DNA from: Amylostereum areolatum
Lineage: Eukaryota; Basidiomycota; Agaricomycetes; Russulales; Stereaceae
Assembly (NCBI GenBank): GCA_012932865.1
Contig: SAXG01000007.1
Coordinates: forward strand, 1,286,841 to 1,350,840
DNA: 64,000 nt
Direction of reading: 5' to 3'
The position numbers and the translations under genes are program-made. The notes beneath the pieces were generated by a model. It was not told where the DNA came from. It ran no database searches and was given only the letters and a program-made list of their open reading frames with translations. Shown piece by piece: positions 7,905 to 44,330 of this stretch. How positions within the stretch are numbered: position 1 is the first letter of the stretch; the number at the start of each line of letters is the position of its first letter.

Positions 7905-10325
7905 CTATCCCCCTCTCTAGAATCTACGTCTCGTAGATTCCTGAATCGAAGCGGTTCTAGAGGGATGTCTTGAACATGCTGTCGATCGCTCGCTCTTCGC
8001 CATTGGAGGAAGGAATATTGTTGATGCGAGGAAGGTGAGGATCGTAAGTCCTACGATGATGCTGATGACGGCGATGAGCCAGCGTGGAGTGGGCGTATTG
8101 AAAATCGCGAGATCGGGTGATTGTGCTGATTGCATCATGCTTCTGGGTTGTCGTTTTCTGATGTTCACTCTTTATATCCTTGCCCGGACCTCAACGATAG
8201 AATTCTATTCTATCGCTTTAGTAACGCCTCTACTACTTTCAAGTCCTCTTCGTCCATCGTGGGAGACCCTAGCCGATGCCCTATCCTCGCCGTCGTCGCG
8301 TGGTCCGGCTTCTGAACCGGGGGCCGTGCTTCCGGAATACCCCTCTGATGCCGCATTTCCCTTTCGACTCCCGCATGGCTTCTTCGTCTAGATTTCTCGG
8401 CCTCTTCATGGCGCGAGCGACGTCCGGACGGTTTAGGAGTTCCGTGACTCTCTTGAGATGACGAAGGAGTTCTTCGTCTTGTGGGTCGGGCGTGGGAGTG
8501 CGCGAGAGGACGGGCGAGGGAGGAGGAGTGGTAGGGGGGAGTGTGGTCGGTGGTGGAGAGGTTGCGCGATGAGGAGGTGAGGGTGGAAAGACATTTGGTT
8601 GGTGTGGGTGGTGCGAGTGGGTTTGTTTAGACAATGTCTGAGGGTGTTGTGGTCTTTGTAGCTTTCCCTTTTATCCTTACGATGCGGAGGGGCAATGATG
8701 TAATCATTGCCAGCAATCGTAAGCGATGATTCGTACATAATCAAAACTGAGTCGTAAGTGAACGGCGTGGCCAGCGCGTCGCATAGAGAATGTCAAATGT
8801 TTCGCCTTCCTCTTAGCGATAGGAATCGGTACAGTAGAGAAGTCCGAGGAAAATATGCGTGCGAATGAGGGCGCAGTCCGTGATCAGTCCGAGAAGTATC
8901 GTAGCGATGAATGTAAACGTGATAGTGATGACGATGAGAAAAGAGAAAGTCCGAGTGTATGATGATGGGTAAAAGTTCGTCCGCGTGCTTACCAAGGCTC
9001 CGGCCAGTGATCCTTCGATTCCTCCGCTTCCTGTAAGTCCCAATCCTCTTCCTTCCAGAAGAGATCGTCGACGCGCCAAGAGTGGTTGAAGCGCGAAGGA
9101 GGTTCCCGCTGAGTGCGGAGCATGGCGTCCTCCCAGTACAACCACTGTTCAGTGGCGTGTTGGGCGGCTTTGTGCGTTAGACTTTCACGTCGTGTGAGGA
9201 ATCCCAGAAGCTGCCTGTGGGCGCGGGCGGTAGCGTCGGTACGTCGGAGGTGGGGGTGGGATATCAGTGTTCCTGGACCGTAGCTGGTATCCAGACGGCT
9301 CGGGCGAGGGCGAGGAAGAGGAGTCTGTGGTCTGAGGGGATAGCAAGACGTGATCGGGGGAAGTGAGGGGGAGCGTTCTTGCGACGAGGACAGTCTCGGC
9401 GGAGATGGCCTTGCTCGCCGCATTTCCAGCAGCTGTTTCCGCGGCTTCGCGGGAATCGCGTCTCACTTCTCTTGCGTCCATGTGGTCGGCTTGTTGTTCC
9501 ATCGTCCGAGGGATTCTCGGCTACTTCCTTCGTCTCGTCGTCATCGGACTGTCCGGTTCGTCCGCCGAGCTGTCCGATTTGTCCGTTGACTCGCTGCTTC
9601 TGTCTCCAGCGAGCGCGGGTTTCCCTCATTTCCTCTATTATCTCCTGGATCTTGTCGCAATTCTTCATCGCTCGACTTATTGGAGAATCCGACGTTTCTG
9701 ATTCGCTTGAGTGGTCTTCCGTCGGGGTCGACAGATTCATGTTTACGTCGCTGTGAGGTGACTCGGGGATTCTGGGCGACGGAATCTCGATCGTGGTCGG
9801 AGTGCGAATGTAGGAACGAGGGATAAGCAGGGGGGACCTCCGTGCCATGGCATGGGAGTGTCGCTAGCAGATACCGGGAATGGAGTTGGCGGTCTAGGCA
9901 CTGTGGGCAGCCGAGAAGATGTCCCAGGTATTGGTCGCGGATCGCCGGTCTGTTGTCTGGGCTCTGGGGGAGCCATGGGCTGTCCGGATCGCTCTCCAGG
10001 TAATCCGTTTCTAGCGACGGGAGGCTGGACGGGGTTAATCTGGGTGATGCCGGGGATGGGTAAGGATCCTGGTGGCGTGTGAGCGGTGACGGGTCGTGGA
10101 GGGGCGTTAGGAAGGAACGGGGGTCTGGTGAGGGCGGATGCGATGGGATCGGGTCGAACAGTATAGCCCGGGGAGATGTGATGTCCATGGAAGATGAGGT
10201 CGATGTCGGGGCCTTCGCGTGACGACATATGGGGAACTCCGGTAGTTTCCATTCGTCTCCGGAGGATTTCTCCTTCGTAAGCGGCGCGGAAGGTATGTCT
10301 TTCCCAGTTGAGCCAGTTGACTCGG
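7905..10325 (-). pseudogene. Gag-like remnant of the family-X element
   Basis: Between the family-X 3' LTR and the Gypsy-1 LTR, the minus strand carries overlapping open stretches in different frames that read like one decayed gag: a proline-rich N-terminal part (about 9743-10325, cut at its 5' end by the Gypsy LTR), a charged helical segment (KIQEIIEEMRETRARW), and a CCHC zinc knuckle CWKCGEQGHLRRDC near 9400. No protease, reverse transcriptase or integrase motif was found, so the element is either non-autonomous or has lost pol. Frame changes near 9500 and 9200 break the reading frame. 7920-8990 holds low-complexity proline/serine-rich frames without a recognisable domain. Confidence 0.55.
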
Positions 10326-10743
10326 TGTCAGAAACGCAGTTTATGAGACCGATGAACCGCCTAAGTCGCGACGATGGGAGGAGCGAGAAGAAAATAGATT
10401 CGAGAGTGCCGGGGTCTAGGGTAGTGCAACGTGCGCTACAGTACCGTATGACGAGATGGACAGTCTAGGGAAAAGGGAAGAGAAACACTGTCCTTATATA
10501 CAAGTGGGAACGATGGTGCGATGCGATGCGATAGTGGTGCGAGCGGGGGAACAATAGGAAAGGAGTCATGGGGCGGAGGACGAAGGTCCGGAGCAGTGAT
10601 GTCATAGATAAGGATGCGGAACCCGCTCGGAAGTCCGGGCAATGACGTCATTGAAGCATGTGATGCAAGGGAAAGTCATGTGCCGTGACACGTCGCGTGT
10701 ACGAGGTCTGCAAACGAAGAGAGAAATGGAGCGATCCGTGACA
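10326..10743 (-). repeat. LTR A (3' LTR of Gypsy-1)
   Basis: 418 bp with TGTCA...TGACA ends. On the minus strand it follows the polypurine tract AAAGGGGGGG (10745-10757) at the end of pol. It contains TATATAAGG and the bases TAGACTGTCCA discussed under self-priming. It differs from LTRs B and C by a few substitutions and single-base indels. Confidence 0.93.
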
Positions 10744-13700
10744 TTACCCCCCCTTTAAGACGCGCTTTCGCCTGGAGCGCGATGTCATCTGCAAGGGTAG
10801 ATGCGAGAAAATCGTCAAAGGAGATGCCGAGGGAACGCACAGGGCGGGGCGCATTTGGATGGCGTTTGTGGAAGGCGTCGATCATGTCGGTGACTTTTGA
10901 GAGCGAGGAGCGAGGGAGCCAGGTATTCTCGGAGTCAGGATAGCCTGCCCACTTGACGAGGTATTGTATGCCTTTCTTGTTGCGGGTCGGCTTCGAGTCG
11001 ATGATGTCTTCAACGTCATATTCTTCTTCGTCATCAACGAGGTCAGGCGGCGGTTGTTCATAGTTTGGACCATGTGCCGTTGTCTCCTTGTACGCGGTGA
11101 GCAGTGAAGCATGGAAGACTGGGTGGATTCTCCACGTCTTCGGCAGCTTCAGGCGGTAGTTCACTGGGCTAATGACGTCAACGATCTCGAAGGGTCCAAA
11201 TCGTTTGGCAGCAAGCTTAGCTTTCGGCCTCGTCGTCTTCAGGTTTTTGCCTTCGAGCCAGACCTTGTCTCCAATGGCGAACAGTGTCGATTTGCTGATC
11301 GTGTCACCATTGTAGTGCTTCATTAAGTCCGATGCGAGGGCAAGGCTGGCTTTGATCTCTTGTCGGACTTCTTCAAGTTGACGGAGGCGTTCTTCAACTG
11401 CAGGGACCTTTGAGGACGGGTTTACGGATGGGTACATCTTGGGGAGGAAGCCAGTAGAGGACTTCAAAGGGAGGCCTTTCCAGTAGCTGCATGGGTGCGA
11501 GAGTTGTGAGAAAACTCGAAGAAGGGCAACCACTTCACCCAGTCGTCTTGACGGTAGTTGCAGAATACTCGCAGAAACTGCTCGAGGTTCTGGTTCTCGC
11601 GTTCGGTTTGGCCGTCTGTCTGTGGGTGATACGCTGTGCTGAGGGCGGACTTGATCCCGAGCTTCTCGTTGAGTGTACGCATCACCTGTCCAGCAAATTG
11701 GGGTCCACGATCCGAGATGATCTTGTCTGCTAAGCCGTAGTGTCGGTATACCTTATCAAGAGAATGTCGGCCGTGCCATCGCTGGTGATCTTCGTTGTAC
11801 ATGGGGTGGTAACCACCATCTTGGTGAGGCGATCGACCACGACATTGACGGCTGTTATAGCCTTCGCAGTCAGGGAGTTCGACGATGAAGTCAGTGGAGA
11901 TGACGCCAAATGGTCGATCGGGTACTTCGTTTGGGATCATGTCGACGTGGGGTCGGCTGCTCTGTGTCTTCGTCGACTGGCAGGTTGCGCATCCTGTTAC
12001 AAAGTCGCGGACAAAGACAGACATGCCAGGCCACCAATATTCACGACTCACAAGCTCGTAAGTCTTGAAGCGACCGGGGTGTCCAGCCAGGGGCGATTCA
12101 TGGTACATTTTGACAATGTCGCTGTCGCAACTCGTCGTCTGCAGGGACATATACCTTTCCTCTAAACAGGACCAGGCCTTCTTCGTAGTTCCACTCTTGA
12201 AGGTTCTTGACAAGTGTACGTGGTCCGTTTCGTAAGATGGCGTCCAGGGCTTGAACGACCTCGATGTCCTTGGTTTTGCAGTCGCGGATACGTCGTCGGA
12301 GTTCGACATCACCGAGGGAGGTTACTGCTCCTGGCCTTGTTGCGCGTACTTGGAAGTACTTGGGGTCAAGCAAGACGCGCTCCTTGTTGTCGTTTTCAAC
12401 ACCATCCTTGTGATCGGGTCGTCGAGACATTGGATCCGGGCGGTGGGAAATTCCTGGTTTATGAACGAGCGAGAAGTCAAATCGAGTGAGGAATAGAGCC
12501 CAACGTGCCTGTCGGCGGCTCAGCTTCTGTGCCGTCTTGAAGTGCTCCAGGTTCTTGTGATCTGTCCAGATTTCGACGGTGTCGGGGGCGCCTTCGAGGT
12601 AGTGGCGCCAGGCTTCAAGCGCACGGATGATCGCAAGCAGCTCCTTGTCGTAGATGTCGTAGTTCCGTTCCGGTTCCGATAGGGCCTTGGACAGATACTG
12701 CCACTGGATGCCAGTGACCGTCGTCGCCTTTCTGCGAGAGTATACCTCCAGTAGCAAAGTCCGAGGCATCGACTTCAACGAGGTAAGGCTTCTTTGGGTC
12801 AGGCATGACCAAGACGGGGGAGGAAGTAAACGCAGCTTTCAGTGCGTCAAACGCAGTTTGTCAGTCCGTCGACCAGTCCCATGTGCAGTCCTTCTTTGTC
12901 AGATCAAATAGGGGCCGTGCCACCTTGGAGAAGTCCTTGATGAAACGTCGGTAGAAGTTGCCAAAGCCGAGGAAGGATTGCACATCTTTGACCGTTCGTG
13001 GTGTCGGCCAGTCCTGAATACCTGCTACCTTGACGGGGGTCCATAGCGATCTTGTCGTGCGAGATGATGAGTCCGAGGTATTCGACAGAGTCTTGTTCAA
13101 AGACGCATTTCTCCGGTTTGAGGAAGAGGTCGTTGTCTTGCAAACGCTGCAGAACCTGCCGCACTACGGCACGGTGTTCGTCCATGGTGCGAGTGAACAC
13201 CAAGATGTCGTCCATGTAGATGATGACCTTGCCCGAGTCGATGAGATCCTTGAACAGTTCATTCATCATTGCCTGAAATGTCGCAGGGGAGTTCATAAGC
13301 CCGAAAAACATCACCGTAGGTTCGAAGAGACCGCGATTCGTCTTGAACGCAGCCTTCCACTCGTCGCCTTCCTTGATGCGGACATTGTTGTAGCCCCAGC
13401 GAACATCCATCTTGGAGAAGATCTTTGCACCTTTGAGGCGGTCGACAATTTCAGAGATCAGTGGCAAGGGGTATTCATTCTTGACAGTGCCCTTGTTTAA
13501 TTCTCGATAGTCCTGTACGGGACGCAGCTTTCCATCCTTTTTCTTCACAAAGAAGAACGGACTCGCCTGAGGTGACTTCGAAGGGCGGATATAGCCCTTC
13601 TTCAGGTGGTCGTCGAGGAAGGTGTCGAGTTCGATCTGCTCGGAAGGTGAGAGGGGGTAGATCTTGCACGGTTTGGGTTCAAAGCCGTCTTTCATGTCGA

Positions 13701-15795
13701 TAGCATGGTCCCATGGCCGTCGGTCAGGAAGTCGCTCGGAGGTTTTCTTGTCGAATACAGGCGCAAAGTCGCGATACGGCAGGGGGACTAAGTCTTCAAA
13801 AGTTTGCGGGCGTGCGTTCTCTTTTGAATGCTCTGCAAGCTCCTGCGCTTTTGTAAAGCCCGCGCGGATGGGTATTGCATCTGGATTAGGACCATCGGTT
13901 TCAGGGAGGATTCCGGCGCGGCGTAGTCCATTGATCTCCCAGTCTCGGAATACCATGGGCCGCTCGTCGTCGTCTTCAGTGAAGAGTCGTGCGGGTAGAG
14001 GGGAGCGATGGACCGTGCAGACGCGAACACCTCTGACTCTGCGTGCAGGAATAACATAAGTGGGGACTGGGGTCCAGGACACATATGTCGGCTCTGGGAA
14101 GGGATCGTCCACGACGAGAGGTGTCCTCGGGGTTTTACCCGCTTCAACCTTACGCTGTGATTGGACCGATGATGGTTTCCGTGGCTTGGTCGCGAGGTTC
14201 GTCACAGGAGGTTTGGACAGAGTGCATGAGGGAGGGCAGCGGAGCATGTCAACACGGTCTCGTTGCCAGTCTATGGTTGGATTGTGCTCATCGAGCCAGT
14301 CTGTTCCAAGGATCATGTCATGATCGCCGATGTCGGTGATGAAGAACTCAGCTTCTTCCTCATGGTATGCCTTTGAATCTTGCGAGTATATCCGGATCCG
14401 CTGGGTCGTTGTGTCGCGTACCCAGCCCATGATGTTCTCGGTGCCGTCCACATTACGCACGGGGAACGGGTTTTCTAGTTTTCTTGTGGTGAGCTTCTTG
14501 CGTTCAACGAAGCTTCGGTTCAGGATAATTCCTTCTGCGCCGCTATCAAGCAGCGCGTCTGCGTCGATTTCTCTTTTGGTAACTCGTCCGATCAGCTTGA
14601 CTTTGAGCGTGATCGATGGTGTTTGCCTGTTCTTGGTGACAGTAGACAGATACAAACACGGGGGATACGATTGCTCACAGGTATGCATGGATGATAATAC
14701 AGCGAAACGATTCGACAATGATACCAAAAGTCCTTTGCCTCCACCAGACGACGCGACTGGGGGGCGTTTCAAAAATCCTGCGATTCCAGGATGTCCTTCA
14801 ACAGCGCTACTGCCTGCTCCTTGCCTTCCGCATCCAGATCCTTCAGCTGGCGAGTGATCGCCGCGATGGTTTTGGATGGGTCGGGAGCTGCTTTTGCAGT
14901 GGACGGAGCCATGTTCGTCGGCAGGGGAGGGGCCTTGGACCCAGTCTCTACTGCGCCCACCCGTCGCGCGCTCGAGTCGCGGTTGGGGACAGTCGCGAGA
15001 GACGTGACCGGCTTGTCGACACATGAAGCACTTGCCTTCGCGCATCATCTTTGCGCGCTCGTCGTCCGTCAGTTTTGCAGGGCGGGTCGAGGTGTTGGTG
15101 AAGGCGCCGACTCGGCGCGACGAGGAGTCGTTGGTCGAACCGTTCGAGGTGAGCGCGACAGCCCCCTTGGACTGACTGCTCTTCCTCTCCGGGTTCTCTT
15201 CGAGCCACTGGTGGTTGATGCGGCGGGCGCGCTCCTTCCACTCCGCGAGCTTGGTGGGGAACGGGTACGACCGGGCCACCTGCTTGCCGAGGTCACGCTG
15301 AAGTCCCTTCTTGAAAAAGTGGATTAGCGCCTCGTCGTCGTACGCTGACATGGTTGCCAGCATCTCAAACTCGGTGATAAAGTCAGTGACGTCCCGGGTG
15401 GTCATTGCGAGCTCGTTGATCTTACGCTGAGCTTCTATCTTCGGATCGACGGGCACGAAGTCTTTGCCAAACCTCTCGAAGAGCTCTTTGTAGGAGCTAT
15501 AGTGGAGTGTTGGGGGCGTGGGGTCGAGGGTGTCGGCGTCTTCCTTCTCGTCTTCGTCGGCGAAGAGTTCCATGCGGCGATGCATGGCCCAGGCTTTCGC
15601 CGTGTCGTCCTCCATCAGGCTGAGGAGAAGCATCATCTTGGCGTCATCTGTGGCATAAACATCCTTGTTAACGCGCAGGAACATGCGGAGCTCGAGGGAG
15701 AACCGGAGGGTGTCGTGTCTATCGCCTTTGAATGGCTTTGGCTTGGGGCCGATCTCCCGCTTGGAGACGGCAGGTTTGGATTCGGCGTCGGACAT
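10676..15795 (-). pseudogene. Gypsy-1 gag-pol, frameshifted
   Basis: Same gene set as Gypsy-2, with gag starting at ATG 15795. Compared with Gypsy-2 it carries several small indels: an extra G near 14990 in the zinc knuckle that fuses gag into the pol frame, an extra G near 13040 in reverse transcriptase, insertions near 12700 and 12120, a small deletion near 11760, a base change near 11840, and small insertions near 11450-11480. It also shares the TGA after the RNase H start. Motifs visible include LLDSGAEG (protease), YMDD and VQDYRELN (reverse transcriptase), HHCC-type integrase motifs with YHPQTDGQTER, and a chromodomain (YDVEDIID, YLVKWAGYP). It cannot make a complete polyprotein. Confidence 0.92.
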
Positions 15796-16386
15796 CTTGT
15801 CAAAGGGGAGGGGGACGGTGAGGGATTGGGCGAGTTCTTGATCAAGGCGGCGTAGGGTTTCTCGTCGGCGTTCTTCTGCTTCTTCAACTTCGTCCTCAAC
15901 TTGTTTTGCGATAAGGAAGTCGGCGGGGGTGAGGAATTGCTGGTTATGATGCCACGACCAGTGCTCTTGGATGGGACTGAACGAAGTGGGCTGCCACTCA
16001 ACTACTGATCGTCCTGGGGCTCCGTTCTTGTTCCGTCTATAGGCGTACCACTTCCCAGTTGTGTCGTTGTGGTTGATCCCTTCTGGGACTTCGATTACAG
16101 TACGTCGACGGGGTGGGGGCGAGTTGGTCGGAGGGGGGTTCAGGAAGCGCTGTAGAACGTCCGCAGCGGTGGCAAAATCCGATTCTTCGACGTAGGGTTG
16201 TTCGTCGCGGTCGTCGAAGTACCAGTCTCGACGTTGCCGGTTTGGTTCGTCGTGCAGCCAACGTACGGATTCCTTAGTCTGCTGCGAGGTGAGGATATAG
16301 TATTCTTCGGGACAGTAGTCTCGAAAGACGCCTGGGGGAAGGTTCGGGGTGGGGGGACGAGGGGCTGTGGAGGACGTGATGATGGT

Positions 16387-17052
16387 CTAGAAGAAGTCCG
16401 CCGCGATGGGGCGACGGCCGAGGAGTTTCTTGGTGAGGTAGCCGGCTTTTACTGCCTGGCGGATCTTATGTTCGTGGTGGCAGCGACGAAGGGTCTTACC
16501 CTTGATGGTGGGACGGAGGACTGGTGGCGGGGTGGATTCGGGGGTCCGGCGGTTAAACTGGGAGACGGAGGTGAAACTGGTTTGGAGGATCGGGTTGGGG
16601 GCGTCTTGGATGAGGTATGTGTGGTAGGTGGGGGCGTGGAGGGTGAATTCAAGGCGTTCAAGATCTACGTTGATGCACGTAGTGATCCGGACGTATAGGG
16701 CGAGGACGACAGTACCGTGATCCTTGTGCCACCTCCACTCGAAGATGCGGAAGTTGAGGCCGTGCGCGGTCCAGGGATCTTCCTTGCAGAGGTTCTGTAC
16801 GGGGACGAGGCAGTTGATGGTGACGGCGTCGGACCAAGGGTAGGGGAGTGGTGCGTCGTCGCGGGGGGTGATCGGCTTTCCGTTGAACGGGAGGAAAACC
16901 GGTGCGTTCGGGAGGTCCGTGGTGGGAGTTTTTAACGTCGTAGAGACGGCAGAGGTAGATGGAGAGAGGGGTGCGAGGTAGGCGTAGGGGTAGACTGTCC
17001 AGGTGTCAGAAACGCAGTTTATGAGACCGATGAACCGCCTAAGTCGCGACAA
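16387..17052 (-). CDS. ORF0 of Gypsy-1: conserved leader reading frame of unknown function
   Basis: An open frame of about 220 codons lies between the 5' LTR and gag and starts inside the LTR. It contains no methionine codon; the listed start is only the limit of the open frame (TTG). It is homologous to a frame in the same place in the more distant Gypsy-3 (46414-46978): HGLNFRIFEWRW here against HGVNCRIYEWRW there, and both end in LLGRRPIAADFF followed by TAG. Changes between them are often synonymous (ATC/ATT, AGG/CGC for Arg), which indicates protein-level constraint. I recognise no domain. After the TAG the same frame stays open for 197 codons into gag. Non-AUG initiation would be required for it to be translated. 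Confidence 0.55.
   Translation of the reverse strand: MSRLRRFIGLINCVSDTWTVYPYAYLAPLSPSTSAVSTTLKTPTTDLPNAPVFLPFNGKPITPRDDAPLPYPWSDAVTINCLVPVQNLCKEDPWTAHGLNFRIFEWRWHKDHGTVVLALYVRITTCINVDLERLEFTLHAPTYHTYLIQDAPNPILQTSFTSVSQFNRRTPESTPPPVLRPTIKGKTLRRCHHEHKIRQAVKAGYLTKKLLGRRPIAADFF
16991..17001 (-). other. Primer-binding site of Gypsy-1, self-complementary type
   Basis: Two bases inside the 5' LTR boundary, the minus strand reads TGGACAGTCTA. This is the exact 11-base complement of TAGACTGTCCA at 17145-17135 in the LTR, about 30 bp after the TATA box, where the RNA should begin. That is the arrangement of Tf1/sushi-type self-priming. No tRNA 3'-end match was recognised. The same pair occurs in Gypsy-2 (23665-23675 with 23809-23819). 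Confidence 0.75.
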
Positions 17053-17423
17053 TGGGAGGAGCGAGAAGAAAATAGATTCGAGAGTGCCGGGGTCTAGGGT
17101 AGTGCAACGTGCGCTACAGTACCGTATGACGAGATGGACAGTCTAGGGAAAAGGGAAGAGAAACACTGTCCTTATATACAAGTGGGAACGATGGTGCGAT
17201 GTGATGCGATAGTGGTGCGAGCGGGGGGAACAATAGGAAAGGAGTCATGGGGCGGAGGACGAAGGTCCGGAGCAGTGATGTCATAGATAAGGATGCGGAA
17301 CCCCGCTCGGAAGTCCGGGCAATGACGTCGTTGAAGCATGTGATGCAAGGGAAAGTCATGTGCCGTGACACGTCGCGTGTACGAGGTCTGCAAACGAAGA
17401 GAGAAATGGAGCGATCCGTGACA
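17004..17423 (-). repeat. LTR B, shared: 5' LTR of Gypsy-1 and 3' LTR of Gypsy-2
   Basis: 420 bp, TGTCA...TGACA. It is followed to its left by ORF0 of Gypsy-1 and preceded on its right by the end of Gypsy-2 pol with the polypurine tract. One LTR therefore serves both elements, the hallmark of a tandem dimer. Confidence 0.93.
17135..17179 (-). promoter_or_regulatory. Gypsy LTR promoter: TATA box and predicted RNA start
   Basis: On the minus strand TATATAAG (17179-17172) is followed about 30 bp later by TAGACTGTCCA (17145-17135). The expected transcription start therefore coincides with the bases that pair with the primer-binding site. The same motif pair is present in LTR A and LTR C. Confidence 0.7.
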
Positions 17424-20400
17424 TTACCCCCCCTTTAAGACGTGCTTTCGCCTGGAGCGCGATGTCATCTGCAAGGGTAGATGCGAGAAAATCGTCAAAG
17501 GAGATGCCGAGGGAACGCACAGGGCGGGGCGCGTTTGGATGGCGTTTGTGGAAGGCGTCGATCATGTCGGTGACCTTTGAGAGCGAGGAGCGAGGGAGCC
17601 AGGTATTCTCGGAGTCAGGATAGCCTACCCACTTGACGAGGTATTGTATGCCTTTCTTGTTGCGGGTCGGCTTCGAGTCGATGATGTCTTCAACGTCATA
17701 TTCTTCTTCGTCATCAACGAGGTCAGGCGGCGGTTGTTCATAGTTTGGACCATGTGCCGTCGTCTCCTTGTATGCGGTGAGCAGCGAAGCATGGAAGACT
17801 GGGTGGATTCTCCACGTCTTCGGCAGCTTCAGGCGGTAGTTCACTGGGCTAATGACGTCAACGATCTCGAAGGGTCCAAATCGTTTGGCAGCAAGCTTAG
17901 CTTTCGGCCTCGTCGTCTTCAGGTTTTTGCCTTCGAGCCAGACTTTGTCTCCAACGGCGAACAGTGTCGATTTGCTGATCGTGTCGCCATTGTAGTGCTT
18001 CATTAAGTCAGATGCGAGGGCGAGGCTGGCTTTGATCTCTTGTCGGACTTCTTCAAGTTGACGGAGGCGTTCTTCGACTGCAGGGACCTTTGAGGACGGG
18101 TTTACGGACGGGTACATCTTGGGGAGGAAGCCGTAGAGGACTTCAAAGGGAGCCTTTCCAGTAGCTGCATGGGTGCGAGAGTTATGAGAAAACTCGAAGA
18201 AGGGCAACCACTTCACCCAGTCGTCTTGACGGTAGTTGCAGAATACTCGCAGAAACTGCTCGAGGTTCTGGTTCTCGCGTTCGGTTTGGCCGTCTGTCTG
18301 TGGGTGATACGCTGTGCTGAGGGCGGACTTGATCCTGAGCTTCTCGTTGAGTGTACGCATCACCTGTCCAGCAAACTGGGGTCCACGATCCGAGATGATC
18401 TTGTCTGCTAAGCCGTAGTGTCGATATACCTTATCGAAGAGAATGTCGGCCGTGCCATCGCTGGTGATCTTCGTTGTACATGGGGTGGTAACCACCATCT
18501 TGGTGAGGCGATCGACCACGACATTGACGGTGTTATAGCCTTCGCAGTCAGGGAGTTCGACGATGAAGTCAGTGGAGATGACGCCAAATGGTCGATCGGG
18601 TACTTCGTTTGGGATCATGTCGACGTGGGGTCGGCTGCTCTGTGTCTTCGTCGACTGGCAGGTTGCGCATCCTGTTACAAAGTCGCGGACAAAGACAGAC
18701 ATGCCAGGCCACCAATATTCACGACTCACAAGCTCGTAAGTCTTGAAGCGACCGGGGTGTCCAGCCAGGGGCGATTCATGGTACATTTTGACAATGTCGT
18801 GTCGCAACTCGTCGTCTGCAGGGACATATACCTTTCCTCTAAACAGGACCAGGCCTTCTTCGTAGTTCCACTCTTGAAGGTTCTTGACAAGTGTACGTGG
18901 TCCGTTTTGTAAGATGGCGTCCAGGGCTTGAACGACCTCGATGTCCTTGGTTTTGCAGTCGCGGATACGTCGTCGGAGTTCGACATCACCGAGGGAGGTT
19001 ACTGCTCCTGGCCTTGTTGCGCGTACTTGGAAGTACTTGGGGTCAAGCAAGACGCGCTCCTTGTTGTCGTTTTCAACACCATCCTTGTGATCGGGTCGTC
19101 GAGACATTGGATCCGGGCGGTGGGAAATTCCTGGTTTATGAACGAGCGAGAAGTCAAATCGAGTGAGGAATAGAGCCCAACGTGCCTGTCGGCGGCTCAG
19201 CTTCTGTGCCGTCTTGAAGTGCTCCAGGTTCTTGTGATCTGTCCAGATTTCGACGGTGTCGGGGGCGCCTTCGAGGTAGTGGCGCCAGGCTTCAAGCGCA
19301 CGGATGATCGCAAGCAGCTCCTTGTCGTAGATGTCGTAGTTCCGTTCCGGTTCCGATAGGGCCTTGGACAGGTATGCCACTGGATGCCAGTGACCGTCGT
19401 CGCCTTTCTGCGAGAGTATACCTCCAGTAGCAAAGTCCGAGGCATCGACTTCAACGAGGTAAGGCTTCTTTGGGTCAGGCATGACCAAGACGGGGGAGGA
19501 AGTAAACGCAGCTTTCAGTGCGTCAAACGCAGTTTGTCAGTCCGTCGACCAGTCCCATGTGCAGTCCTTCTTTGTCAGATCAAATAGGGGCCGTGCCACC
19601 TTGGAGAAGTCCTTGATGAAACGTCGGTAGAAGTTGCCAAAGCCGAGGAAGGATTGCACATCTTTGACCGTTCGTGGTGTCGGCCAGTCCTGAATACCTG
19701 CTACCTTGACGGGGTCCATAGCGATCTTGTCGTGCGAGATGATGAGTCCGAGGTATTCGACAGAGTCTTGTTCAAAGACGCATTTCTCCGGTTTGAGGAA
19801 GAGGTCGTTGTCTTGCAAACGCTGCAGAACCTGCCGCACTACGGCACGGTGTTCGTCCATGGTGCGAGTGAACACCAAGATGTCGTCCATGTAGATGATG
19901 ACCTTGCCCGAGTCGATGAGATCCTTGAACAGTTCATTCATCATTGCCTGAAATGTCGCAGGGGAGTTCATAAGCCCGAAAAACATCACCGTAGGTTCGA
20001 AGAGACCGCGATTCGTCTTGAACGCAGCCTTCCACTCGTCGCCTTCCTTGATGCGGACATTGTTGTAGCCCCAGCGAACATCCATCTTGGAGAAGATCTT
20101 TGCACCTTTGAGGCGGTCGACAATTTCAGAGATCAGTGGCAAGGGGTATTCATTCTTGACAGTGCCCTTGTTTAATTCTCGATAGTCCTGTACGGGACGC
20201 AGCTTTCCATCCTTTTTCTTCACAAAGAAGAACGGACTCGCCTGAGGTGACTTCGAAGGGCGGATATAGCCCTTCTTCAGGTGGTCGTCGAGGAAGGTGT
20301 CGAGTTCGATCTGCTCGGAAGGTGAGAGGGGGTAGATCTTGCACGGTTTGGGTTCAAAGCCGTCTTTCATGTCGATAGCATGGTCCCATGGCCGTCGGTC

Positions 20401-21452
20401 AGGAAGTCGCTCGGAGGTTTTCTTGTCGAATACAGGCGCAAAGTCGCGATACGGCAGGGGGACTAAGTCTTCAAAAGTTTGCGGGCGTGCGTTCTCTTTT
20501 GAATGCTCTGCAAGCTCCTGCGCTTTTGTAAAGCCCGCGCGGATGGGTATTGCATCTGGATTAGGACCATCGGTTTCAGGGAGGATTCCGGCGCGGCGTA
20601 GTCCATTGATCTCCCAGTCTCGGAATACCATGGGCCGCTCGTCGTCGTCTTCAGTGAAGAGTCGTGCGGGTAGAGGGGAGCGATGGACCGTGCAGACGCG
20701 AACACCTCTGACTCTGCGTGCAGGAATAACATAAGTGGGGACTGGGGTCCAGGACACATATGTCGGCTCTGGGAAGGGATCGTCCACGACGAGAGGTGTC
20801 CTCGGGGTTTTACCCGCTTCAACCTTACGCTGTGATTGGACCGATGATGGTTTCCGTGGCTTGGTCGCGAGGTTCGTCACAGGAGGTTTGGACAGAGTGC
20901 ATGAGGGAGGGCAGCGGAGCATGTCAACACGGTCTCGTTGCCAGTCTATGGTTGGATTGTGCTCATCGAGCCAGTCTGTTCCAAGGATCATGTCATGATC
21001 GCCGATGTCGGTGATGAAGAACTCAGCTTCTTCCTCATGGTATGCCTTTGAATCTTGCGAGTATATCCGGATCCGCTGGGTCGTTGTGTCGCGTACCCAG
21101 CCCATGATGTTCTCGGTGCCGTCCACATTACGCACGGGGAACGGGTTTTCTAGTTTTCTTGTGGTGAGCTTCTTGCGTTCAACGAAGCTTCGGTTCAGGA
21201 TAATTCCTTCTGCGCCGCTATCAAGCAGCGCGTCTGCGTCGATTTCTCTTTTGGTAACTCGTCCGATCAGCTTGACTTTGAGCGTGATCGATGGTGTTTG
21301 CCTGTTCTTGGTGACAGTAGACAGATACAAACACGGGGGATACGATTGCTCACAGGTATGCATGGATGATAATACAGCGAAACGATTCGACAATGATACC
21401 AAAAGTCCTTTGCCTCCACCAGACGACGCGACTGGGGGGCGTTTCAAAAATC
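17356..21452 (-). pseudogene. Gypsy-2 pol (protease, RT, RNase H, integrase, chromodomain), one TGA
   Basis: The pol frame is entered one base back from gag near 21450 and runs to 17356 inside LTR B, so the polypurine tract lies within the coding region. Domains in order: aspartic protease (LLDSGAEG, ILGTDWL), reverse transcriptase (VQDYRELNKG, YMDD), RNase H ([12 protein letters not shown]), integrase (zinc-binding region, YRHYGLADKIISDRGPQF, YHPQTDGQTER) and chromodomain (YDVEDIID, YLVKWVGYP). The only break seen is a TGA at 19537-19539 between WDWSTD and QTAFDAL, also present in Gypsy-1; Gypsy-3 has Cys-containing sequence here. Apart from that stop, both halves are fully open, suggesting recent activity of the lineage. 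Confidence 0.9.
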
Positions 21453-22469
21453 CTGCGATTCCAGGATGTCCTTCAACAGCGCTACTGCCTGCTCCTTGCC
21501 TTCCGCATCCAGATCCTTCAGCTGGCGAGTGATCGCCGCGATGGTTTTGGATGGGTCGGGAGCTGCTTTTGCAGTGGACGGAGCCATGTTCGTCGGCAGG
21601 GGAGGGGCCTTGGACCCAGTCTCTACTGCGCCCACCCGTCGCGCGCTCGAGTCGCGGTTGGGACAGTCGCGAGAGACGTGACCGGCTTGTCGACACATGA
21701 AGCACTTGCCTTCGCGCATCATCTTTGCGCGCTCGTCGTCCGTCAGTTTTGCAGGGCGGGTCGAGGTGTTGGTGAAGGCGCCGACTCGGCGCGACGAGGA
21801 GTCGTTGGTCGAACCGTTCGAGGTGAGCGCGACAGCCCCCTTGGACTGACTGCTCTTCCTCTCCGGGTTCTCTTCGAGCCACTGGTGGTTGATGCGGCGG
21901 GCGCGCTCCTTCCACTCCGCGAGCTTGGTGGGGAACGGGTACGACCGGGCCACCTGCTTGCCGAGGTCACGCTGAAGTCCCTTCTTGAAAAAGTGGATTA
22001 GCGCCTCGTCGTCGTACGCTGACATGGTTGCCAGCATCTCAAACTCGGTGATAAAGTCAGTGACGTCCCGGGTGGTCATTGCGAGCTCGTTGATCTTACG
22101 CTGAGCTTCTATCTTCGGATCGACGGGCACGAAGTCTTTGCCAAACCTCTCGAAGAGCTCTTTGTAGGAGCTATAGTGGAGTGTTGGGGGCGTGGGGTCG
22201 AGGGTGTCGGCGTCTTCCTTCTCGTCTTCGTCGGCGAAGAGTTCCATGCGGCGATGCATGGCCCAGGCTTTCGCCGTGTCGTCCTCCATCAGGCTGAGGA
22301 GAAGCATCATCTTGGCGTCATCTGTGGCATAAACATCCTTGTTAACGCGCAGGAACATGCGGAGCTCGAGGGAGAACCGGAGGGTGTCGTGTCTATCGCC
22401 TTTGAATGGCTTTGGCTTGGGGCCGATCTCCCGCTTGGAGACGGCAGGTTTGGATTCGGCGTCGGACAT
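21444..22469 (-). CDS. Gypsy-2 Gag, intact
   Basis: 341 codons from ATG at 22469 (context AAGATGT, favourable for initiation). Gag forms the particle that packages element RNA. An N-terminal charged segment (KPKPFKGDRHDTLRFSLELRMF) and a retrotransposon-gag core (YKELFERFGKDF, FITEFEMLA, FFKKGLQRDLG) are followed by a CCHC zinc knuckle CFMCRQAGHVSRDC and a helical C-terminus. It ends DILESQDF-TGA at a run of five T. The gag stop overlaps the pol frame, which lies at -1. The Gypsy-1 counterpart is fused out of frame by an extra G in the knuckle. Confidence 0.9.
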   Translation of the reverse strand: MSDAESKPAVSKREIGPKPKPFKGDRHDTLRFSLELRMFLRVNKDVYATDDAKMMLLLSLMEDDTAKAWAMHRRMELFADEDEKEDADTLDPTPPTLHYSSYKELFERFGKDFVPVDPKIEAQRKINELAMTTRDVTDFITEFEMLATMSAYDDEALIHFFKKGLQRDLGKQVARSYPFPTKLAEWKERARRINHQWLEENPERKSSQSKGAVALTSNGSTNDSSSRRVGAFTNTSTRPAKLTDDERAKMMREGKCFMCRQAGHVSRDCPNRDSSARRVGAVETGSKAPPLPTNMAPSTAKAAPDPSKTIAAITRQLKDLDAEGKEQAVALLKDILESQDF

Positions 22470-23060
22470 CTTGTCAAAGGGGAGGGGGACGGTGAGGGAT
22501 TGGGCGAGTTCTTGATCAAGGCGGCGTAGGGTTTCTCGTCGGCGTTCTTCTGCTTCTTCAACTTCGTCCTCAACTTGTTTTGCGATAAGGAAGTCGGCGG
22601 GGGTGAGGAATTGCTGGTTATGATGCCACGACCAGTGCTCTTGGATGGGACTGAACGAAGTGGGCTGCCACTCAACTACTGATCGTCCTGGGGCTCCGTT
22701 CTTGTTCCGTCTATAGGCGTACCACTTCCCAGTTGTGTCGTTGTGGTTGATCCCTTCTGGGACTTCGATTACAGTACGTCGACGGGGTGGGGGCGAGTTG
22801 GTCGGAGGGGGGTTCAGGAAGCGCTGTAGAACGTCCGCAGCGGTGGCAAAATCCGATTCTTCGACGTAGGGTTGTTCGTCGCGGTCGTCGAAGTACCAGT
22901 CTCGACGTTGCCGGTTTGGTTCGTCGTGCAGCCAACGTACGGATTCCTTAGTCTGCTGCGAGGTGAGGATATAGTATTCTTCGGGACAGTAGTCTCGAAA
23001 GACGCCTGGGGGAAGGTTCGGGGTGGGGGGACGAGGGGCTGTGGAGGACGTGATGATGGT
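22470..23060 (-). other. AUG-less in-frame extension between ORF0 stop and Gypsy-2 gag
   Basis: The 197 codons between the ORF0 TAG (23063-23061) and the gag ATG are open in the frame shared by ORF0 and gag and contain no ATG in any frame. Composition is protein-like (FRDYCPEEYYILT, WYFDDRDEQPYVEE, then Glu/Arg-rich QVEDEVEEAEERRRETLRR). The start of the region is conserved in Gypsy-3 (TP-[ND]-x-P-x-G-x-x-R...EYY-x-LT). Identical sequence precedes Gypsy-1 gag at 15796-16386. It may be an N-terminal extension of Gag reached by stop readthrough, splicing or non-AUG initiation, or a constrained leader. Confidence 0.5.
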
Positions 23061-23726
23061 CTAGAAGAAGTCCGCCGCGATGGGGCGACGGCCGAGGAGT
23101 TTCTTGGTGAGGTAGCCGGCTTTTACTGCCTGGCGGATCTTATGTTCGTGGTGGCAGCGACGAAGGGTCTTACCCTTGATGGTGGGACGGAGGACTGGTG
23201 GCGGGGTGGATTCGGGGGTCCGGCGGTTAAACTGGGAGACGGAGGTGAAACTGGTTTGGAGGATCGGGTTGGGGGCGTCTTGGATGAGGTATGTGTGGTA
23301 GGTGGGGGCGTGGAGGGTGAATTCAAGGCGTTCAAGATCTACGTTGATGCACGTAGTGATCCGGACGTATAGGGCGAGGACGACAGTACCGTGATCCTTG
23401 TGCCACCTCCACTCGAAGATGCGGAAGTTGAGGCCGTGCGCGGTCCAGGGATCTTCCTTGCAGAGGTTCTGTACGGGGACGAGGCAGTTGATGGTGACGG
23501 CGTCGGACCAAGGGTAGGGGAGTGGTGCGTCGTCGCGGGGGGTGATCGGCTTTCCGTTGAACGGGAGGAAAACCGGTGCGTTCGGGAGGTCCGTGGTGGG
23601 AGTTTTTAACGTCGTAGAGACGGCAGAGGTAGATGGAGAGAGGGGTGCGAGGTAGGCGTAGGGGTAGACTGTCCAGGTGTCAGAAACGCAGTTTATGAGA
23701 CCGATGAACCGCCTAAGTCGCGACAA
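23061..23726 (-). CDS. ORF0 of Gypsy-2
   Basis: Copy of ORF0 with the same protein sequence as in Gypsy-1: about 220 codons, no methionine, starting inside LTR C and ending AADFF-TAG. The end CTTCTTCTAG also looks like a fungal 3' splice site (pyrimidine tract plus TAG), with a possible branch site CTCAC about 45 bases before it. Splicing is therefore a real alternative to translation through the stop. Function unknown. Confidence 0.55.
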   Translation of the reverse strand: MSRLRRFIGLINCVSDTWTVYPYAYLAPLSPSTSAVSTTLKTPTTDLPNAPVFLPFNGKPITPRDDAPLPYPWSDAVTINCLVPVQNLCKEDPWTAHGLNFRIFEWRWHKDHGTVVLALYVRITTCINVDLERLEFTLHAPTYHTYLIQDAPNPILQTSFTSVSQFNRRTPESTPPPVLRPTIKGKTLRRCHHEHKIRQAVKAGYLTKKLLGRRPIAADFF

Positions 23727-24097
23727 TGGGAGGAGCGAGAAGAAAATAGATTCGAGAGTGCCGGGGTCTAGGGTAGTGCAACGTGCGCTACAGTACCGTA
23801 TGACGAGATGGACAGTCTAGGGAAAAGGGAAGAGAAACACTGTCCTTATATACAAGTGGGAACGATGGTGCGATGTGATGCGATAGTGGTGCGAGCGGGG
23901 GGAACAATAGGAAAGGAGTCATGGGGCGGAGGACGAAGGTCCGGAGCAGTGATGTCATAGATAAGGATGCGGAACCCCGCTCGGAAGTCCGGGCAATGAC
24001 GTCGTTGAAGCATGTGATGCAAGGGAAAGTCATGTGCCGTGACACGTCGCGTGTACGAGGTCTGCAAACGAAGAGAGAAATGGAGCGATCCGTGACA
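23678..24097 (-). repeat. LTR C (5' LTR of Gypsy-2)
   Basis: 420 bp, nearly identical to LTR B, with TGTCA...TGACA ends. Its right edge at 24097 abuts truncated Copia pol: the Copia frame runs straight into the LTR. The adjacent primer-binding site is 23665-23675 and the complementary RNA-start bases are 23809-23819. Confidence 0.93.
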
Positions 24098-42600: not shown

Positions 42601-43712
42601 AAGCCTTTGGTTGGAAGTCTGGTTTCAGGTCAATAGCATGGTCCCAGGGACGTCACTTAGGGAGACGTTCAGACGTAGCTTTGTCGAACACCGACTTGAA
42701 CAAGCGATATTGCTCCGGGACCATATCTTCAAATGTTTTTGTCTTGACATCAGCCGCCTTTTCTGCCAACTGTTGCGCCTTGGTGAAGGTGGCACGTATG
42801 GCGAGGTCGTTGGACTGTTCTTCCCGTGCTAGTTGTTCGGTGGTGACTTCCTTTACGACTCCCGCAGCACGTAGGCCATCTTGGGTCCAGGAAGCCAGGA
42901 CAATGTCCGACTGCTCGTCGTCATCTTCTGTGAACCACTTTGCACCTGAAGGTGTATGGCGGGGAGAACGAACACAAGCATGCCGTACACAGCGGGCAGG
43001 GATCACGTACTTTGTGTTGCTTGGGTGGTTGGTCACCTTGCGGACACGAGGTTCTTCAACTTCAACCTCGTCAGCTTCAACGACGTCAATGGGTGGTTGT
43101 GGCCCAGACCGGTGTTCCGGTTTGATGCGAAGCTTCTTGACCGGAGGTTTGTGTAGGACGCATGTGGGTGGACAGCGTGTCATGTCGACTTCTTCTCCAT
43201 CCCAGTTGATTTCTAGGTTATGCTCCTTCAACCGGTGAGTTCCTAGGATCATGTCGTGATCACCGATGTCCGTGACAAAGAATTCGGCTGTTTCCTCATG
43301 ATACGATTCTGTGGATTGCGCATAGATGCGAACACGCTGGGTAGTCGAATGACGTACCCATCCCATTATGTTCTCCGTTCCATCTACATTGCGGACAGGG
43401 AACGGGCGGTCAAGGGTATCCAACGAGAGCCCTTTCTTTTCTGCAAATCTTTGGCTAATGATAATGCCTTCAGCACCGCTATCCAGCAGCGCTTCAGCGT
43501 CGATTTTCCTTCCAGTGACTCGTCCAATCAGTTTGACATCCAGCAATATTGAGGGTGTGTGCCTATTCTTCATGACCGTTGACAGTTTCAAGCAGGTTGG
43601 AAGAACACGCTCACTGGATTGCATGGATGATAGTACAGAGAAACGATTTGACGATGCCATAGAAAAACCTTTGCCACCCACAGATGACACGACTAGGGGG
43701 CGTTCTAAAAAT
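39623..43712 (-). pseudogene. Gypsy-3 pol (protease to chromodomain), with stops
   Basis: Protease (LLDSGAEGIIIS, ILGTHRL), reverse transcriptase ([14 protein letters not shown]), RNase H ([12 protein letters not shown]), integrase (YHPQTDGESERANQ) and chromodomain (YEIEAILD, YLVKWLGYP, NEW). Breaks: TGA at about 42654 ([14 protein letters not shown], where Gypsy-1/2 have [10 protein letters not shown], fitting CGA to TGA) and TGA at about 41427 before FLTRFDF. Pol lies at -1 relative to gag, and the gag stop overlaps it at a conserved T-run, as in Gypsy-2. Confidence 0.9.
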
Positions 43713-44330
43713 CCAAGCCACCAGCGAGATCCTTCAACATCGCCGCGGCCTCCTCACGCTCCTCCTTGCCCAACTTCTTCATCTTGTTGATCAGGACCGA
43801 CATCTCCTTGACTGGATCCGCATTTGAGGTTGTTGTCGCTTGAGGGGACGAGGGGGCATGCGCGGAGGGTACTCCTGAGTTTGAGTCAGTTTCCAATGCT
43901 CCTACACGTCTTCCACTGCTCGAGTCCTTGTTCGGGCAGTCGTGCAGCATGTGACCTGGTTGGCGACAGAGGAAACAACCACCTTCCTTTCGCAGACACT
44001 CGCGCTCAGCATCAGTGAGACGTCCTGGACGCCCTCCTTGGGTGCTGACTGCTCCAACGCGCGGTCCACTGCTAGTGGAGGATGAGGGTCGTGCGCTAGT
44101 GGTCGATGACGAGGTCTTCTGCTTCCGGTCTGCAGGCGATGCGAGCCGGCGGTTGCGGAGAAAGACTTCATTGAGCACGCATGCACAAACCTTCCAGTCG
44201 TCAAGAGTGGTAGGGAGCGGCCAAGTCCTCTCGCATTCTGTGACGACACGTGTCAATAGCCCCTATCTTTTTCCTCAAAGGGACTCACGCCCTTTTCATT
44301 TTGTTACGACAGTGGAAGGACATCACCGCG

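Follow-up and report, generated by a model that had tools for sequence, protein, structure and literature searches.

A chromodomain Ty3/gypsy element of Amylostereum areolatum carries two conserved protein frames, a separate ORF0 and an N-terminal extension of gag, in a leader free of AUG, and it is probable from the sequence that ORF0 and a long Gag are started at near-cognate codons, while the remaining ribosomes scan on to the gag AUG. According to this model, the RNA of the element would be scanned from its 5' end and would offer three start sites. The ORF0 start, used by a minority of ribosomes, would be ACG in Gypsy-1/2 and CUG in families B and G3, each with A at −3 and G at +4; its product of ~20 kDa would have a basic tail and end at UAG. 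Some ribosomes would start at an AUC 4–8 nt past the ORF0 stop, resulting in a Gag with an N-terminal extension of 193–226 residues, and the rest would meet no AUG over 1.35 kb, start at the gag AUG and produce ordinary Gag. What the sequence itself establishes is that both frames are under selection, that AUG is excluded throughout the families, that the two frames are independent of each other, and where and in which context the near-cognate codons lie.

Elements and sampled copies

The window, a 64-kb stretch of the A. areolatum genome, holds three copies of the element, and their features are summarized in Table 1. On pieces of Gypsy-2, a copy that is not intact, Pfam found the domain order Retrotrans_gag, zf-CCHC, RVP_2, RVT_1, RT_RNaseH, Integrase_H2C2, rve, SH3_Tf2-1 and Chromo. 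With gag, a CCHC knuckle, protease, reverse transcriptase, RNase H, an integrase core and a C-terminal chromodomain, the element is classified by its sequence as a Ty3/gypsy chromovirus. Rfam gave nothing at gathering scores in the 64-kb window.

Table 1. Features of the elements in the window (minus strand throughout).
Feature	Position	Strand	Basis or remark
5' LTR of Gypsy-1, also 3' LTR of Gypsy-2 (tandem pair)	17002–17423	−	self-blastn of the window
TATA box (GTATATAAGG)	17170–17179	−	pattern; ~33 nt upstream of inferred RNA start
Inferred RNA 5' end, self-primer TAGACTGTCCA	17135–17145	−	exact reverse complement of PBS
PBS TGGACAGTCTA, directly after 5' LTR, Gypsy-1	16991–17001	−	
PBS of Gypsy-2	23665–23675	−	inferred RNA start 23809–23819
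A-run of variable length, Gypsy-1	16929–16933	−	4 to 7 A among G1 copies
Proposed ORF0 start ACG (cccaccACGgac), Gypsy-1	16918–16920	−	CTG in families B and G3
ORF0 of Gypsy-1	16390–16920	−	177 codons, no Met; dN/dS 0.16–0.45 between families; 0 in-frame or out-of-frame ATG
ORF0 stop TAG, Gypsy-1	16387–16389	−	
Proposed AUC start of long Gag (accatcATCacg), Gypsy-1	16378–16380	−	homologous ATC in B and G3
Extension of Gypsy-1	15796–16386	−	197 Met-free codons in frame with gag; candidate N-terminal part of long Gag
gag AUG of Gypsy-1	15793–15795	−	first AUG of inferred RNA
gag, first part (Retrotrans_gag)	15100–15795	−	Pfam PF03732, E 2.2e-08
ORF0 of Gypsy-2	23064–23594	−	protein 100% identical to that of Gypsy-1
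Extension of Gypsy-2	22470–23060	−	gag ATG 22467–22469
ORF0 of Gypsy-3	46417–46953	−	CTG 46951–46953 to TAG 46414–46416
Extension-frame ATC of Gypsy-3, after ORF0 stop	46403–46405	−	phase +2; gag ATG 46133–46135

Further copies were sampled from the genome, with 40 of 902 and 150 of 458 search candidates scored. Classification covered 58 of the 62 loci. L059, which coincides with L028, and L060 were not used, L061 and L062 were read singly, and the window copies were counted once (Gypsy-1 as L002, Gypsy-2 as L001, Gypsy-3 as L009). Family labels were assigned by the spacer between ORF0 and the extension, and three spacer types hold all 58 copies, namely 14 of G1 (Gypsy-1/2), 13 of B and 31 of G3 (Gypsy-3), with several open copies each. 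As near-identical pairs such as L022/L023 occur, the counts are not independent events, and the first eight G1 copies are young by choice, since they were chosen for their closest similarity to the window. Family B combines, as a mosaic, parts resembling G1 with parts resembling G3: its gag is 94% identical to that of G1 over the first 600 nt, and its ORF0 is 76% identical to that of G3. The evidence from the three families is therefore not fully independent.

Complementarity of at least 10 nt between self-primer and PBS was present in 14/14 G1, 10/13 B and 18/31 G3 copies; in the control, the shuffled PBS side matched in 8 of 1,160 trials. Both partners have changed between G1/B and G3, the 18 G3 copies carrying a 10-nt counterpart. 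The self-primer was not found in 13 G3 copies (including the representative L014 and Gypsy-3 of the window) and in two B copies, and one B copy reads N at the site.

A leader without AUG

The sequence-only reading had claimed a leader without a sense-strand ATG in any frame, and indeed the sense strand of Gypsy-1 has none in the 1,350 nt between 17145, the inferred start of the RNA, and 15796, immediately ahead of the gag ATG, thus also no AUG uORF, while the antisense strand of the same leader has 19. Its estimate that roughly twenty would be expected fits the neighborhood, where 1,350-nt minus-strand segments of the 64-kb stretch have a median of 22, but is too high for the leader's own composition, from which 6.5 (first-order Markov model of the leader itself) or 7–12 (dinucleotide and mononucleotide composition) are expected. 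Zero was reached in 0.12% of 5,000 Markov simulations, and ATG is the most depleted trinucleotide of the leader (0 observed vs 6.5 expected). Among 1,253 overlapping minus-strand segments (step 50), four lacked ATG, all of them over the leaders of Gypsy-1 and Gypsy-2.

The exclusion extends to the families. In the aligned leaders, no ATG column other than that of gag (13/13 G1, 11/11 B, 21/31 G3) is shared by more than half of the copies; the columns ranking behind it reach 4/11 (B) and 9/31 (G3). This alignment comprised 13 of 14 G1, 11 of 13 B and all 31 G3 copies, leaving out L057 (a G1 mosaic with a broken extension) as well as L044 and L046 (B, both with N). Taken singly, 10/14 G1, 4/13 B and 0/31 G3 leaders are wholly ATG-free, and stray ATGs often lie at sites reading ACG in other copies (10/10, 9/16 and 33/84 sites).

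Synonymous shuffling of ORF0 predicted 3.1, 4.0 and 3.2 out-of-frame ATGs for G1, B and G3, and none was observed in any of them (P = 0.0065, 0.002 and 0.0175). For the extension, 3.3, 2.4 and 5.0 were expected and 0, 0 and 2 observed (P = 0.007, 0.03 and 0.059), the two ATGs lying inside the extension of the G3 representative. Out-of-frame ATGs in gag were at expectation in G1 and B and above it in G3, and in-frame Met is absent from both ORF0 and extension in all three family representatives. Furthermore, the leader folds weakly (mean −28.5 vs −37.5 kcal/mol per 150 nt, overlapping windows, P = 4e-5). With no AUG in any frame and weak folding, ribosomes should be able to get to gag.

Purifying selection on ORF0 and the Gag extension

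In Gypsy-1, the frame is open for 251 codons ahead of the TAG, which is more than the about 220 codons initially given for ORF0, but conservation between families is confined to the last ~177 codons (from 16920); the upstream part consists of LTR, primer-binding site and a short spacer. The proposed homolog in Gypsy-3 was confirmed, with 46.7% identity, synonymous changes and the same LLGRRPIAADFF-TAG end, although the window copy is broken by a premature TGA (46540–46542). Between family representatives, 49–76% of the ORF0 amino acids are identical. The gag-frame extension, 193–226 codons long, is kept as protein, in frame with gag and without Met, in all three families.

With one copy per family, dN/dS of ORF0 was 0.43 (G1–B), 0.16 (B–G3) and 0.45 (G1–G3), and that of the extension 0.39, 0.45 and 0.45, respectively, where the comparisons with G3 carry high synonymous divergence; the first 600 nt of gag gave 0.43, 0.25 and 0.30. 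For ORF0 and for the extension, pN was below pS in 1000 of 1000 bootstraps in all three pairs. The value near 1 that would have spoken against a translated ORF0 was not seen in its frame; the +1 and +2 sense frames of ORF0 and extension gave 0.91–2.27. The antisense frame sharing third positions was also low (0.28–0.64), as expected from the mirror effect. Recent selection is visible among 11 of the 14 G1 copies (L049, L050 and L057 left out), with a pN/pS of 0.32 for ORF0 and 0.15 (one stop) for the extension. The corresponding count for the untranslated leader (189/225 sites) is meaningless, because the copies are misaligned by indels; the same fault may affect the value of 0.48 (three stops) for gag.

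As judged from these substitution patterns, ORF0 and the Gag extension are both under purifying selection, as the sequence-only reading had supposed for ORF0, and such selection at the protein level without AUG points to non-AUG initiation of a separate ORF0 protein and of an extended Gag. With regards to function, our best guess is that ORF0 works as an accessory protein for assembly or RNA handling and that the extension acts as a matrix-like Gag domain.

Candidate start codons

The proposed ORF0 start is the sole in-frame near-cognate codon with A at −3 and G at +4 in each of the three family representatives, in a scan that began at the upstream stop and ended 90 nt downstream. As the length of the A-run differs between G1 copies, the phase is not kept upstream of this start; in G1 and B, copies with the common run of five A have two more in-frame ACG codons 18 and 21 nt upstream of it. 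In the B and G3 representatives, no near-cognate codon of the extension frame other than ATC combines A at −3 with G at +4; the ATC of G1 has A at −3 and A rather than G at +4. AUC is a weak start codon. Its position 4–8 nt past the ORF0 stop is maintained in all three families despite the changed spacer length.

Exceptions among the copies are AAC instead of ATC in 2/31 and a non-CTG start of ORF0 in 5/31 G3 copies, as well as an ATG at the ORF0 start of one G1 copy, and all of these look decayed. The pattern missed the B start codon in 4/13 copies, which by eye all read CCCTGGAA. Most of the context is prescribed by the ORF0 start pattern itself, and the ATC of G1 as well as the AT of B by the family labels, so the tallies show only that every copy belongs to one of the three types. 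Of the two products once considered as alternatives, an extended Gag or a separate ORF0 protein, both are favored by the sequence; that ribosomes use the near-cognate codons, and in which proportions, is what we infer.

In Amylostereum chailletii, the Met start of gene model P0001 aligned with the CTG of family B and seemed to be an AUG version of the same start, but proved to be an artefact. At locus L061, a deletion in a P0001-type copy moves an ATG, which is ACG in other leaders, next to ORF0; hence the P0001 Met is not at the ancestral start site and was dropped as evidence. P0001 also misses 18 conserved residues, as if by a false intron.

Junction of ORF0 and gag and alternative explanations

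The arrangement described earlier, in which ORF0, a TAG and 197 further codons run in phase into gag, holds for the Gypsy-1/2 family, but not for B and G3, where the downstream frame lies in another phase. Relative to the ORF0 stop, the phase of the extension is 0 in G1, +1 in B and +2 in G3, and the indels that change it sit between the ORF0 stop and the first conserved ATC. These differing phases lead us to reject readthrough, frameshifting and splice joining as a common mechanism. A fusion of ORF0, extension and Gag, made by ribosomes that start ORF0 at a non-AUG codon and then cross the UAG, would suit the phase of Gypsy-1/2, yet the other phases are a family-wide state and not that of one copy, and every family would need its own recoding event; the readthrough once suggested for this junction is thus very unlikely. 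Splicing, with TTCTTCTAG as 3' splice site, gag from spliced and ORF0 from unspliced RNA, also fails to account for three extension phases, although TTYTTCTAG followed by A is conserved at the junction and presumably resembles a fungal acceptor, a donor-like GGTAAGA lies 113 nt upstream in G1, and public A. chailletii gene models (P0002, P0003) join ORF0 and extension ad hoc. Judged by GTRNG only and in one copy per family, the single donor-like site of G1 (phase 1, needed 0) and the two in ORF0 of B (phase 1, needed 2) misfit, and one of two in G3 fits. Moreover, the ORF0 end is conserved at the amino acid level with synonymous changes, splicing alone supplies no AUG for the extension, as there is none upstream in G1, and the AUG-freedom of the removed region would be left unexplained. 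A splice-made junction AUG was considered as well, but an AT/GT boundary would read ATG in the DNA, of which the G1 leader has none, and no AGTG was seen by inspection in the printed G1 start regions. Overall, the splice acceptor proposed by the sequence-only reading appears unlikely.

More room, albeit as a doubtful alternative, is left for coupled termination and reinitiation, where ribosomes ending ORF0 would restart at the AUC to make the long Gag without leaky scanning. The AUC is at most 8 nt from the ORF0 stop in three families though the spacer length changed, and stop–restart is described for non-LTR elements and caliciviruses (PMC5972666, PMC5902531). Against this, ORF0 stop and AUC start do not overlap, no stable RNA structure was found near the junction (z −0.33), and ORF0 with 177 codons is far above the limit of ~50 codons for upstream ORFs, beyond which reinitiation is said to need the help of a special mechanism (PMC5902531). 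A corresponding scheme of three starts, with CUG/ACG for ORF0, a stop-coupled AUC restart for the long Gag and AUG for the short Gag, could only tentatively be put forward from the sequence. We know of no LTR retroelement with a stop-coupled restart at a non-AUG codon. Finally, the leader might be non-coding, AUG-free only so that scanning reaches gag, with frames open by chance. Scanning alone does account for the AUG exclusion, but dN/dS far below 1 in the ORF0 and extension frames and not in the two other sense frames, the ORF0 identity between families and the pN/pS of 0.15–0.32 in young copies make this hardly credible.

Homologs and comparison with known systems

Neither ORF0 nor the extension has a family in Pfam or in NCBIfam, a library for bacteria and archaea, and a PDB sequence search with ORF0 gave no match. 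The structure models reached a pLDDT of 44.6 (ORF0) and 65.2 (extension), and Foldseek found no match to the extension model in the PDB at E ≤ 0.001 (best E 0.24). This leader is poorly handled by gene finders that insist on an ATG: for ORF0, the searches brought up no database relatives except three ad hoc A. chailletii models, two of which, by our reading, also contain part of a G3-type extension, and none of 566 candidates scored at E ≤ 0.01 in the search with the G1 extension.

Plant Ty3/gypsy elements such as Ogre, Retand and Retrosat2 (ORF0) also have an extra ORF beside gag-pol, and to our knowledge these ORFs are not described as non-AUG-started in an AUG-free leader. No published LTR retrotransposon with an AUG-free coding leader was found in the open-access literature, and this element would be the first one known to us in which such a leader holds an additional conserved gene together with an extension of Gag. 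If used, its near-cognate starts would place Ty3/gypsy elements alongside the related Caulimoviridae with their leaky scanning, and non-AUG initiation in basidiomycetes could be tested in a genome that offers many copies with clear near-cognate codons.

Plant viruses and mouse leukemia virus are the best-known users of substitute (non-AUG) starts. According to PMC5902531, ORF I of rice tungro bacilliform virus (RTBV) starts at AUU, ~900 nt of upstream ORFs are free of internal AUG, which allows ribosomes to arrive at the main polyprotein, and in RTBV and badnaviruses (Caulimoviridae) leaky scanning leads past ORF I and ORF II to ORF III. Both are reverse-transcribing elements with upstream ORFs without internal AUG before the main ORF, and the ACG/CTG with A at −3 and G at +4 at the start of the conserved ORF0 frame would be a putative counterpart of the AUU start. 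Unlike RTBV, ours is a fungal LTR retrotransposon with a second putative non-AUG start upstream of gag and an AUG-free stretch of 1.35 kb, and Gypsy-1 has no shunt leader with short AUG uORFs. For murine leukemia virus (MLV), PMC5778647 describes glyco-Gag, an N-terminally extended Gag with a near-cognate start in the context accCUGg, and an AUC start observed in profiling. The in-frame Gag extension without Met would be similar if it has the putative non-AUG start, and family B shares the accCUGg context as cccaccCTGgaa, but at the ORF0 start; in contrast to glyco-Gag, the start proposed for the extended Gag is AUC, a separate ORF lies ahead and no Pfam family was found for the extension.

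The Tf1 self-primer has 11 bases complementary to the PBS (PMC7175516). In the same manner as in Tf1/sushi elements, the first 11 nt of the inferred RNA are complementary to the PBS beside the 5' LTR, and the chromodomain integrase is shared as well. We know of no ORF0 or AUG-free coding leader in Tf1. In filamentous fungi, cpc-1, the GCN4 homolog, has conserved near-cognate starts (ACG, AUU/AUC, CUG), and at least four near-cognate codons initiated in vitro, with profiling in support (PMC5487733). While cpc-1 is a cellular gene under uORF control, unlike this element, conserved ACG, AUC and CUG codons at the proposed starts of conserved frames are common to both.

The AUG-free leader and its families

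The Gypsy-1 retrotransposon leader, described as AUG-free in the sequence-only reading, indeed contains no ATG on the sense strand within 1,350 nt, compared with 19 on the opposite strand. A Markov model with the leader's own composition predicts 6.5, and zero was obtained in 0.12% of 5,000 runs. Among 1,253 overlapping minus-strand windows of 1,350 nt, only four were ATG-free, and all of them lie over the Gypsy-1 and Gypsy-2 leaders.

A genome search with a piece of the Gypsy-3 ORF0, the Met-free frame of the leader, scored 150 of 458 candidates and returned at least 150 matches; identities among the matches listed were mostly about 84-94, 70-77 or 40-42%, with some pieces intermediate. We fetched 62 loci and assigned 58 to families by the sequence downstream of the ORF0 stop: 14 to G1 (the Gypsy-1/2 type), 13 to B and 31 to G3 (the Gypsy-3 type), with none of the 58 outside these three types. 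Family B looks like a recombinant, a mosaic of G1-like and G3-like parts. Over the first 600 nt of gag its protein is 94% identical to G1, and its ORF0 is 76% identical to G3 and 54% to G1. In L039, L057 and other B-type copies, leader and gag are G1-like and the ORF0 start is G3-like.

Neither ORF0 nor the extension, the frame between the ORF0 stop and gag, encodes Met in any of the three family representatives. Out-of-frame ATGs number two in the extension of the G3 representative and zero in the other five regions. Synonymous shuffles predict 2.4 to 5.0 for each of the six; P for the depletion lies between 0.002 and 0.03 in five regions and is 0.059 in the remaining one. By the same shuffles, gag has as many ATGs as expected in G1 and B, and more than expected in G3. 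Single copies were ATG-free in the leader in 10/14 (G1), 4/13 (B) and 0/31 (G3) cases, the G3 leaders carrying 1 to 14 ATGs each. In the alignments, the only leader ATG held by a majority is that of gag (13/13 G1, 11/11 B, 21/31 G3), and the next most frequent columns reach 4/11 (B) and 9/31 (G3). Sister copies read ACG at all 10 stray ATG sites of G1, at 9 of 16 in B and at 33 of 84 in G3, a signature of CpG decay. AUG exclusion is a family trait, although single copies often carry ATGs.

Selection on ORF0 and the extension

One open copy per family (L001 for G1, L039 for B, L014 for G3) was compared by the Nei-Gojobori method. For the pairs G1-B, B-G3 and G1-G3, dN/dS was 0.43, 0.16 and 0.45 in ORF0, which is not near 1, 0.39, 0.45 and 0.45 in the extension, and 0.43, 0.25 and 0.30 in the first 600 nt of gag. 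Values of 0.91 to 2.27 were obtained when ORF0 and extension were read in the two remaining sense frames; the ratio was also low (0.28-0.64) in the antisense frame with common third positions, where the mirror effect predicts it. For ORF0 and for the extension, pN stayed below pS in every one of 1,000 bootstraps. Among 11 of the 14 G1 copies, ORF0 shows 8 synonymous and 8 non-synonymous changes, a pN/pS of 0.32; the extension shows 17 synonymous and 8 non-synonymous changes and one stop, a pN/pS of 0.15. Judged from these substitutions, both frames are under selection as protein, and the core idea of non-AUG translation is supported by the sequence.

In the protein database, relatives of ORF0 were found in A. 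chailletii only, with one protein among 35 candidates for a single query and three among 6,270 for an alignment query; on reading, two of them (P0002 and P0003) also hold part of a G3-type extension. ORF0 had no match in Pfam, NCBIfam or PDB sequences, and the extension had none in Pfam, NCBIfam or among solved folds. Literature searches of open-access papers found no LTR retrotransposon with such a leader arrangement.

Junction and start sites

Readthrough of the ORF0 stop or a splice acceptor at the junction had been proposed to join the two frames. The protein after the stop (PPTP..PPG.FRDYCP.EY..LTS) is present in G1 and B, with a clear homologue in G3, and the extension runs without a stop to the gag AUG in each representative. 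Relative to the ORF0 stop, the three families hold it in different phases (G1 0, B +1, G3 +2), the spacers reading TAG-ACC-ATC-ATC (G1), TAG-A-ATC-ATC or ACC-ATC (B) and TAG-AC-ACC-ACC-ATC (G3). Because the phase differs among families, readthrough, a single frameshift or a single splice phase is excluded as an explanation for all three, and the proposed junction mechanism is not supported. With one representative per family, a donor-like GTRNG site of suitable phase was found in G3 only. The two frames are, by their phases, evidently independent.

The A-run upstream of ORF0 comprises 4, 5, 6 or 7 A among the G1 copies. As its changing length breaks the phase, the constraint on ORF0 begins downstream of it; in L062, the 7-A copy, ORF0, extension and gag are all open. 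Between the upstream stop and 90 nt below the proposed ORF0 start, each family representative has a single in-frame near-cognate codon that combines A at -3 with G at +4. It is ACG for G1 and CTG for the other two families, and its position is homologous. Of the 14 G1 copies, 12 carry ACG there, the exceptions being one ATG and, in the mosaic L057, one CTG. CTG stands in 26/31 G3 copies, where the rest read CTA (two), CAG (two) or TTA (one), and in 9/13 B copies by pattern, the other four being found by eye. The proposed extension start is ATC in 14/14 G1, ATC or ATT in 13/13 B, and ATC, ATT or ATA in 29/31 G3 copies; the way the families were labelled already determines this codon in G1 and, for B, the first two of its bases. 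The representatives of B and G3 combine A at -3 with G at +4 around it, but the G1 representative has A at +4.

Proposed translation

The leader folds weakly: overlapping 150-nt windows average -28.5 kcal/mol there and -37.5 kcal/mol elsewhere in the element (P 4e-5). From the anatomy of the element, scanning with three start sites is the most likely mode: ribosomes would scan from the cap through the weakly folded leader, a fraction would initiate at ACG/CUG to give ORF0, another fraction at AUC to give a long Gag, and the remainder at the gag AUG. The long Gag may be produced by leaky scanning or, alternatively, by reinitiation after ribosomes have terminated at the end of ORF0. The three-start scanning mode would be similar to that of RTBV and of MLV glyco-Gag, with neither of which the Gypsy-1/2 element is classed. 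For RTBV, about 10% of ribosomes are described to initiate at the ORF I AUU while the remainder scan on through 900 AUG-free nt (PMC5902531). The glyco-Gag start context of MLV is given as accCUGg, and other gammaretroviruses are described as generally lacking AUG in this region (PMC5778647). Conserved ACG, AUU/AUC and CUG starts are reported for fungal cpc-1 (PMC5487733).

Self-primer and element layout

By domain content, the elements of this wood-decay fungus (PMC7227769) are chromodomain Ty3/gypsy elements with a Tf1-like self-primer. In Tf1, the first 11 bases of the RNA are described to pair with the PBS (PMC7175516), and Gypsy-1/2 have the same layout, a putative RNA start complementary to the PBS. 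Complementarity over 10 nt or more was found in 14/14 G1, 10/13 B and 18/31 G3 copies, against 8 of 1,160 control trials in which the PBS side was shuffled. It was not found in 13 G3 copies, including the Gypsy-3 of the window, nor in two B copies; one further B copy reads N at the site. The G3 self-primer is AGATCGTCCT or AGATTGTCCT and differs from that of G1 and B on both pairing sides.

Features of the elements and of the window
Feature	Position	Strand	Remark
Gypsy-1 + Gypsy-2 array	10324-24097		LTR-body-LTR-body-LTR; 99.5% identity across 7.1 kb
Common LTR of the tandem Ty3/gypsy elements	17002-17423	minus	self-blastn of the window
PBS side, 11 nt	16991-17001	minus	directly after LTR
Self-primer TAGACTGTCCA	17135-17145	minus	about 33 nt past TATA box; exact reverse complement of PBS side
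RNA 5' end (inferred)	17145
Gypsy-1 leader	17145 to 15796
Gypsy-2 in-frame stop	19537-19539		in pol, between RT and RNase H
Gypsy-3 gag 3' end	43701-43716		GAT TTT TAG
Foldback insertion inside Gypsy-3	44324-45156		arms of 408 nt each with 98% complementarity, separated by 17 nt
Open frame with DDE_1 transposase domain	57549-59285	plus	E 2.3e-21

Because of the in-frame stop in pol, the Gypsy-2 copy is not intact. The gag of L062 ends in GAT TTT TGA (approximately 2788-2799 of that locus), and in both L062 and Gypsy-3 pol resumes in the -1 frame at the T-run of the gag end, which suggests that Gag-Pol may be made by -1 frameshifting there.
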